Positions 59,229 to 59,967 of a stretch of DNA of 64,000 nucleotides are shown piece after piece. The first letter of the stretch is position 1; every line of letters starts with the position of its first letter. A program made the translations under genes and the position numbers. This stretch comes from Noviherbaspirillum massiliense JC206. GTDB taxonomy: Bacteria > Pseudomonadota > Gammaproteobacteria > Burkholderiales > Burkholderiaceae_D. The notes beneath the pieces were generated by a model. The model saw nothing but the letters and a program-made list of their open reading frames with translations, did no database searches and was not told the origin of the DNA. The DNA lies in the NCBI RefSeq assembly GCF_000312045.1, contig NZ_HE978634.1:62001-126000 (forward strand), read 5' to 3'.

Positions 59229-59657
59229 TTAGATGTCGAGCGGCTTGGGTTGCTGAGCAGCGTGCGGATGGGTACCTTCCGCATACACCTTCAGTTTCTT
59301 GATCATCGCATAGCCGAGAGGACCTTTGGGCAGCATGCCCTTGACCGCCTTCTCGAGCGCACGACCCGGAAAACGCTGCTGCATTTTCTCGAAATTCGTT
59401 TCGTAGATACCGCCTGGGTAACCGGAGTGACGGTAGTACTTCTTGTTCAAGTTCTTGGTGCCGGTCACGCGCAGCTTGCCTGCGTTGATGACGACAATGA
59501 AATCGCCCGTGTCGACGTGCGGAGTAAATTCCGGTTTGTGCTTGCCGCGCAGTCGGAGTGCCACTTCGCTGGCGACACGCCCGAGGACCTTGTCCGTCGC
59601 GTCAATCACGAACCAGTCACGCTTGACCTCATGGGCTTTCGCGGAAAAGGTTTTCAT
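59229..59657 (-). CDS. rplM: 50S ribosomal protein L13
   Basis: 142-residue ribosomal protein. The start [19 protein letters not shown] at 59657 is the standard L13 N-terminus; upstream in-frame codons to 59690 are rejected. The motif [18 protein letters not shown] is diagnostic. It has a near-consensus promoter at 59777-59806. Confidence 0.98.
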
Positions 59658-59776: not shown

Positions 59777-59806
59777 ATTATAGTCTTTTCAAAGACTTGG
59801 CGTCAA
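59777..59806 (-). promoter_or_regulatory. rplM-rpsI promoter with palindromic spacer
   Basis: On the minus strand TTGACG (59801-59806) and TATAAT (59777-59782) are separated by 18 bases. The spacer contains an inverted repeat AGTCTTT/AAAGACT (59782-59797) with a two-base centre, which could be an operator. Confidence 0.8.
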
Positions 59807-59827: not shown

Positions 59828-59933
59828 AAAAAAAACCCGAAGTGCGTAAACTTCGGGTCAAAATCCACACCATTGGAGGGTGGAGGAGACAATGGTTCGA
59901 CTGAAACTTTCCAAACTTGCTTTAACAGTCGGC
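59828..59933 (-). ncRNA. Candidate small RNA with an anti-Shine-Dalgarno hairpin loop
   Basis: About 105 bases on the minus strand, upstream of rplM. Reading 5'-3': stem CGACTG/CAGTCG (59926-59931 with 59898-59903); then stem ACCATTG/CAATGGT (59890-59896 with 59869-59875) displaying the 14-base loop TCTCCTCCACCCTC; then a terminator stem ACTTCGGGT/ACCCGAAGT (59850-59858 and 59835-59843) followed by seven more T residues. A promoter fits just upstream. The loop is complementary to strong ribosome-binding sites, as in Cuckoo-type RNAs. No sizeable minus-strand gene lies between promoter and terminator. The family is not identified. Confidence 0.62.
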
Positions 59934-59945
59934 AATAAAGTCTAG
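59892..59945 (+). CDS. Possible 17-codon peptide opposite the small RNA
   Basis: A strong GGAGGAG at 59882-59888 precedes an ATG at 59892; the frame reads MVRLKLSKLALTVGNKV and ends in TAG at 59945. The ribosome-binding site is the complement of the small-RNA loop, so one of the two may be incidental. No promoter was seen on this strand; the minus-strand RNA is the better-supported reading. Confidence 0.2.
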   Translation: MVRLKLSKLALTVGNKV

Positions 59946-59967
59946 GCCGATTTATTGTGCGGCGCAA
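59939..59967 (-). promoter_or_regulatory. Promoter of the candidate small RNA
   Basis: TTGCGC (59962-59967) and TAGACT (59939-59944) on the minus strand, separated by 17 bases. The expected start is at about 59931-59933, at the foot of the first hairpin. Confidence 0.55.

Follow-up and report, generated by a model that had tools for sequence, protein, structure and literature searches.

A predicted RF02278-family small RNA upstream of rplM in Noviherbaspirillum massiliense JC206 and a possible link between its promoter and the PHB regulator PhaR

Layout of the locus and family assignment

The window, that is, the whole stretch of 64,000 nucleotides of N. massiliense JC206 DNA that was analysed, carries on its minus strand a predicted small RNA (sRNA) gene upstream of the ribosomal protein gene rplM. 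An earlier note on this DNA had proposed a minus-strand promoter, an anti-Shine-Dalgarno (anti-SD) sequence and a terminator ending in T8, all of which lie at the coordinates collected in Table 1. From the position of the promoter, the RNA is expected to start near 59932. Taken literally, this promoter has 7 of the 12 consensus bases and was absent from the output of a consensus promoter scan; orthologs have a promoter in the corresponding place, many of them with a better -10. The anti-SD sequence UCUCCUCC occupies 59889-59882. Since rplM has its own promoter, located after the sRNA terminator, the sRNA appears to form a unit of its own, as the earlier note had held, and the independent anti-SD sRNA of about 105 nt predicted there is supported by sequence and comparison.

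Table 1. Features at the sRNA locus (positions within the window)
Feature	Position	Strand	Basis
sRNA promoter: -35 TTGCGC 59967-59962, 17-base spacer, -10 TAGACT 59944-59939	59939..59967	-	sequence; place kept in orthologs
PhaR-operator-like box TTGCGCCGCACAA over -35	59955..59967	-	sequence; published operators
Predicted sRNA long form, ~105 nt	59828..59932	-	inferred from promoter and terminator positions
5' hairpin of long form, 59931-59926 with 59903-59898	59898..59931	-	covariation: both-side changes in 4/6 pairs, 11 long-form sequences
RF02278 core, likely short processed form	59828..59891	-	Rfam, 53.8 bits, E 8.7e-10
Seed UGUCUCCUCC, anti-SD	59882..59891	-	almost unchanged across 34 orthologs and paralogs
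Conserved central hairpin UCCACCC/GGUGUGGA	59864..59884	-	folding, alignment
Intrinsic terminator, stem 59859-59834, then T8	59828..59859	-	terminator sequence; covariation: both-side changes in 4/9 pairs, 11 long-form sequences
Separate rplM promoter TTGACG-18-TATAAT (TTGACG 59806 to TATAAT 59777)	59777..59806	-	11/12 consensus bases
rplM (ribosomal protein L13), next gene downstream, outside the sRNA	59229..59657	-	ORF; relatives by tblastn

The core of the RNA matches Rfam RF02278, the Betaproteobacteria toxic small RNA, above the curated cut-off of 50 bits, while the matches to anti-hemB, Pseudomon-1/ErsA and ncS16 were far below their cut-offs. On folding, it shows the RF02278 layout of two hairpins, with an exposed UCUCC 5' of the first and the terminator as the second. 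The sRNA is a member of the already described "toxic" or double-hairpin family, and the suggestion that it was an undescribed regulator fell with this match. Members have been found experimentally in B. cenocepacia (PMC4603805, PMC5688073) and reported in Herbaspirillum (PMC7011215), and the family has been related to S17 of B. pertussis (PMC11722255). The slowing of growth by overexpression is published for family members, not for the JC206 copy. Family and place are thus already known, and what is new is a putative and testable regulatory link to PhaR.

Structure, processing and distribution

The RNA folds better than shuffled sequences, both as 112 nt (z -3.06) and as 73 nt (z -4.00). When the three stems taken from 11 aligned long-form sequences were checked for covariation, the 5' hairpin and the terminator showed it (Table 1). 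The conserved central hairpin, in which 59884-59878 are predicted to pair with 59871-59864, is invariant across these 11 sequences, and its inner positions are occupied by CG, UA, AU and GU pairs across 34 orthologs and paralogs; these were folded singly and the pairs tallied from the single-sequence folds, because the MAFFT alignment A2 misplaces gaps in this hairpin.

The earlier note had instead drawn a perfect seven-base-pair stem, ACCATTG/CAATGGT, closing a 14-base loop; the letters are present, but the pair probability is 0.006. Enforcing this stem costs 3.4 kcal/mol (-29.1 vs -32.5), and 48.7% of its cells pair in the 11 aligned long-form sequences, with zero double changes, so that it was rejected. 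The JC206 copy has lost, at 59870-59881, a second CU stretch present in relatives (CCUCCUUU), creating the CAATGG of the rejected stem. The exact complement of GGAGGAG followed by ATG exists in the JC206 copy because it has CAT before TGTCTCC, but CAT is found in none of the 12 other loci compared.

By analogy with ncS27 and S17, the latter cut by RNase E, cleavage of the long form probably takes place near UGUCUCC. In several paralogs a -10-like box was seen by eye directly before YGUCUCC, and these are therefore probably made directly as the short form. Three paralogous loci (L001, L004 and L008) share, also by eye, AAAGCRGA about 30-50 bases before the RNA. Sass et al. reportedly described a common upstream motif in three homologues, with which AAAGCRGA is perhaps identical.

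With regard to distribution, 80 rplM loci were fetched and 73 scanned with Rfam, leaving out L022, L024, L028, L029, L031, L041 and L049. Of the 73, 40 (11/20, 11/13, 16/20 and 2/20 by batch) carry RF02278 ahead of rplM and in the same orientation; among those with no Rfam match are the scanned loci of Massilia, Duganella, Janthinobacterium and Rugamonas and several MAGs. The same-genus locus L117 is identical to that of N. autotrophicum (L037) across the sRNA region. In B. aenigmatica (L064), RF02278 likewise lies upstream of rplM, and the RNA would measure about 93 nt from start to terminator by manual count. We take BCAL3348 to be rplM. The B. cenocepacia sRNA ncS27 is described as a processed RNA of 92 nt encoded between BCAL3348a and BCAL3349 (PMC4603805, PMC5688073). 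By place and length, ncS27 most likely has its positional ortholog in the JC206 sRNA.

The family is strongly multiplied in the genus: at E up to 1e-4, each of 14 same-genus genomes holds between 6 and 24 places; three to five copies have been published for Burkholderia (PMC5688073). JC206 itself has 10 places at E < 1e-4, four of them above the cut-off. The pattern CTCCTCC-T6 revealed nothing beyond the Rfam copies used. Arrays also occur, such as three copies 185 bp apart in one genome (G028, C1:961093-961529) and six within about 15 kb in another (G019, C113:125971-140862).

These observations bear on other accounts of the locus. That the RNA represents a new Cuckoo-type family, unrelated to known sRNAs, was the reading of the earlier note and draws on the CU-rich anti-SD sequence with independent promoter and terminator; the RF02278 match over the curated cut-off refutes this novelty and positional orthologs exist upstream of rplM, so that we regard it as very improbable. 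It is also highly unlikely that the element acts in cis on rplM, as a leader or attenuator, in spite of its position on the same strand upstream of that gene in 40 of 73 loci, since rplM has a promoter of its own after the terminator, one locus (L125) keeps the sRNA with no rplM found within 1.4 kb, paralogs are located elsewhere, and the sRNA pairs weakly with the start region of rplM (-8.5 vs a background median of -15.1). The plus strand offers GGAGGAGACAATG followed by 17 codons, which might be taken for a small peptide behind a GGAGGAG site; the ATG is missing in 12 of 12 other loci compared and the site is simply the complement of the sRNA seed, which leaves this peptide barely credible. 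The RNA is accordingly treated below as an RF02278 sRNA transcribed, by prediction, from its own promoter.

A PhaR-operator-like box at the sRNA promoter

A conserved box at the -35 was noted in the sRNA orthologs before any comparison with published PhaR operators. The JC206 promoter carries TTGCRNYGCAC over its -35, and the orthologs share YTTGCRNYGCACMA there. The operator consensus is given as YTKNTGCRNYGCANMAR for PhaR of R. eutropha (PMC12849132) and as TG[N]TGC[N]3GCAA for that of H. seropedicae (PMC3206438). The JC206 site, a TGC-N3-GCA palindrome, fits the published consensus, with two mismatches to YTKNTGCRNYGCANMAR, both flanking.

Among the 41 sRNA loci, which are mutually related and hence not independent, the R. 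eutropha consensus was found in 15 upstream regions with at most one mismatch (vs 0.5% of shuffles) and in 30 with at most two (vs 6.8%). The core TGCRNYGCA occurs within 300 nt upstream of 34 of them (vs 4.6% of shuffles) and at the -35 of 29. Core-positive loci include those of Noviherbaspirillum, Herbaspirillum, Glaciimonas, Collimonas, Undibacterium, Paraburkholderia, one of three Cupriavidus, Limnobacter and Polynucleobacter. Twelve of the 41 (L015, L051, L055, L056, L061, L064, L068, L071, L072, L076, L080 and L081) have no perfect core at the -35, namely an Undibacterium MAG, both Ralstonia, one Polynucleobacter, four of six Burkholderia, B. aenigmatica among them, both Caballeronia and two of three Cupriavidus; the Burkholderia-named records with the core at the -35 are L063 and L074. 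In the genus and its near relatives, 12 of 13 sRNA loci have the core, the window included, and it is absent at L118 of the same genus. It is kept at L125, even though no rplM was found there within 1.4 kb, and among the other nine JC206 sRNA copies it was seen within 300 nt at L007 only. Where rplM loci gave no Rfam sRNA match, the core was present in 4 of 33; in two of these (L079 and L083) a TCTCCTC string is present too, resembling an sRNA below the threshold, but L016, L018, L035 and L039 have the string without the core. PhaR itself is present in JC206 and in 37 of 39 other genomes searched; of the two genomes without a PhaR match, that of L055 has no motif and that of L069, a MAG of 1.1 Mb, keeps it.

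A second conserved element, ATTTC-N-YA-N-TGCARAT, was observed immediately before the -35 at 12 of the 41 loci (L051, L052, L056, L061, L064, L067, L068, L070, L072, L073, L074 and L077), in some of them within a larger inverted repeat, and is perhaps another operator.

The motif was also related to PHB genes. A pattern derived from sRNA promoters has 11 matches in the JC206 genome, the sRNA included, vs one for the reversed pattern. Two of the 11 lie a short way ahead of phasin genes, one phasin gene being opposite a PHB depolymerase gene, and a Phasin_2 search of the genome returned three genes, all in those same two motif-bearing loci. In eight other genomes, picked for having the core in their sRNA promoter, a choice that favours matches at the sRNA, TTGCRNYGCACAA gave 49 matches vs 20 reversed, so that many of the 49 are due to chance. 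Six of them, in five of the eight genomes, fall 50-164 bp upstream of a phasin ATG, five fall at the sRNA and one upstream of phaC in Limnobacter; at 25 of the remaining 37 loci the motif falls within an ORF of at least 200 aa. Besides these, a DUF3683/FAD-oxidase gene of JC206 has two PhaR-like motifs close to its start (G000:C1:2719947-2720237; L108, L109) and such a gene in Collimonas has one (L178), which makes this gene possibly a PhaR target.

The main competing explanation accepts the known RF02278 sRNA and takes TTGCRNYGCAC for the site of another regulator, or in part just for a constrained -35 element, with PHB playing no part. In fact, TTGC coincides with the -35, 12 of 41 loci have no core there, and PhaR is present in 37 of 39 genomes, so that its co-occurrence with the motif tells little. 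Nevertheless, the conserved right half GCACAA sits outside the -35 hexamer, the motif finds phasin promoters in JC206 and in five of eight other genomes, and it matches two published operators, for which reasons we consider this explanation unlikely, if by no means negligible. The reading of the box as a PhaR operator is the one followed here.

Candidate targets, proposed circuit and known relatives

The extended site GGAGGAGACA-N(0-8)-ATG has seven matches in the JC206 genome and none when reversed: three complements of sRNA genes, one apparently spurious match (L159) and three start regions, those of a TctC solute-binding protein, a tannase-family protein and a propionate-CoA ligase. Nine further genomes gave 56 matches and none reversed. 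Loci were built for 30 of these, 25 having an ORF of at least 150 aa (23 distinct) and five having none; all 23 distinct ORFs were compared with Pfam, six also with NCBIfam, and sorted by hand. Nine concern uptake or porins (three MFS, two DctP, a lactate permease, two solute-binding proteins and a porin), six are enzymes (acetoacetate-CoA ligase, acyl-CoA ligase, 3-hydroxyacyl-CoA dehydrogenase, formaldehyde dehydrogenase and two 2Fe-2S subunits), five are regulators (two sigma-54 activators, AraC, LysR and IclR), and the other three are a GNAT protein, a pyrophosphatase and one without match. By these raw counts, uncorrected for how common such genes are, perfect seed matches at start codons often fall on uptake and acyl-CoA genes. 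Sigma-54 activators were reported by Sim et al. as targets of S17 and bdhR1 (PMC11722255).

As regards the triplet after GGAGGAG, ACA was the commonest of eight (18 of 48 matches in four genomes, four known sRNA genes removed), followed by AAC with eight; the excess has p 9e-6 against a uniform expectation, which ignores composition, and p 0.32 against one third, so that a preference for ACA is only suggestive. By pairing energy alone, no mRNA other than that of the tannase (-31.1) exceeds the 1% background value (-26.4), while TctC and PrpE (-24.6) pass the 5% background, and the PHB depolymerase mRNA just reaches the 5% value (-23.1). Phasin mRNAs were rejected as targets, the two start regions giving about background values (-16.5 and -14.6 vs a median of -15.1).

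PhaR is a PHB-sensing repressor. The present analysis shows the family, the synteny and the structure, as well as an operator-like motif that is linked to phasin promoters. From them a circuit may be proposed, in which the transcription, processing and targets of the sRNA, as well as the binding of PhaR and its direction, are predictions. The sRNA would be made from its own promoter as an RNA of about 105 nt and, as in ncS27 and S17, would be shortened to a core of about 64 nt that begins near UGUCUCC. The exposed UGUCUCC(UCC) would pair with extended ribosome-binding sites GGAGGAGACA and block translation, its main targets, according to seed matches and published relatives, being solute-uptake and acyl-CoA/carbon-catabolism mRNAs. 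PhaR would repress transcription through the operator over the -35; on formation of PHB granules PhaR would be titrated, the ncS27-type sRNA would rise, and carbon uptake and acyl-CoA activation would fall. Taken as a whole, this model of an RF02278/ncS27 ortholog repressed by PhaR, induced by PHB and damping carbon uptake is considered quite probable. The more general proposal, that many Burkholderiales link their PHB store to the translation of carbon-uptake genes through a PhaR-controlled anti-SD sRNA, is considered slightly less probable because of the loci without core and the reversed-pattern control. If true, the sRNA would report carbon storage and restrain further uptake.

The authors of the ncS27 work state that the regulation of ncS27-type sRNA accumulation is unknown, and report that overexpression slows growth and that the RNA is up in glucose medium and in starvation (PMC5688073). 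This induction cannot simply be credited to PhaR, because the nearest Burkholderia loci have no perfect core. A PhaR operator would offer, for many genera, a directly testable answer to what controls these sRNAs, and no publication on PhaR control of RF02278/ncS27-type sRNAs was found in the open-licence literature.

Among known sRNAs, ncS27/RF02278 is the nearest: the JC206 sRNA shares with it the covariance-model match, the seed, the two-hairpin core, a long form with extra 5' sequence and the place upstream of rplM, a likeness for which B. aenigmatica L064 and further loci stand in for ncS27. The relatives keep the second CU stretch (UCCUCCUU) that the JC206 copy has lost, the predicted long form is about 93 nt in L064 and about 105 nt in JC206, and the perfect PhaR-like core at the JC206 -35 was not found in the Burkholderia loci L056, L064 and L068.

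Cuckoo RNAs (CcsR and relatives) bear CU-rich anti-SD sequences in loops and adjoin a DUF1127 (CcaF-type) gene. The Cuckoo-type design proposed by the earlier note holds as a likeness in mechanism, but the JC206 sRNA is an RF02278 member whose neighbours are rplM, osmC and coq7, and no DUF1127 gene was among the three upstream neighbours scanned (OsmC, COQ7 and a porin); no papers linking DUF1127 to Burkholderia sRNAs were found in the open-licence literature.

S17 of B. pertussis resembles the JC206 sRNA in its conserved C/U-rich site and in lying near coq7, and differs, as far as the description in the source goes, in not being next to rplM, the two having been compared by description (PMC11722255). 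Its long form is processed by RNase E, it represses mRNAs at ribosome sites, including that of a sigma-54 activator, and tests in E. coli showed no toxicity under the conditions used (PMC11722255).

Finally, MmgR (alpha-r8) of S. meliloti is reported as a small anti-SD sRNA with a PhaR/AniA site in its promoter and repressed by AniA (PMC8401924, PMC7143759, PMC12542648). Being alphaproteobacterial, it is a precedent for the circuit and not for homology; the alpha-r8 family was absent among the six Rfam matches up to E 10, a result that depends on Rfam having such a family. According to the published accounts MmgR lowers phasins, whereas the two JC206 phasin start regions tested pair with the sRNA about as background. 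If the proposed circuit is true, the JC206 sRNA would be a betaproteobacterial counterpart of MmgR, perhaps by convergence, and a single storage regulator would have come to control anti-SD sRNAs in two proteobacterial classes, a point of relevance to PHB-producing strains.
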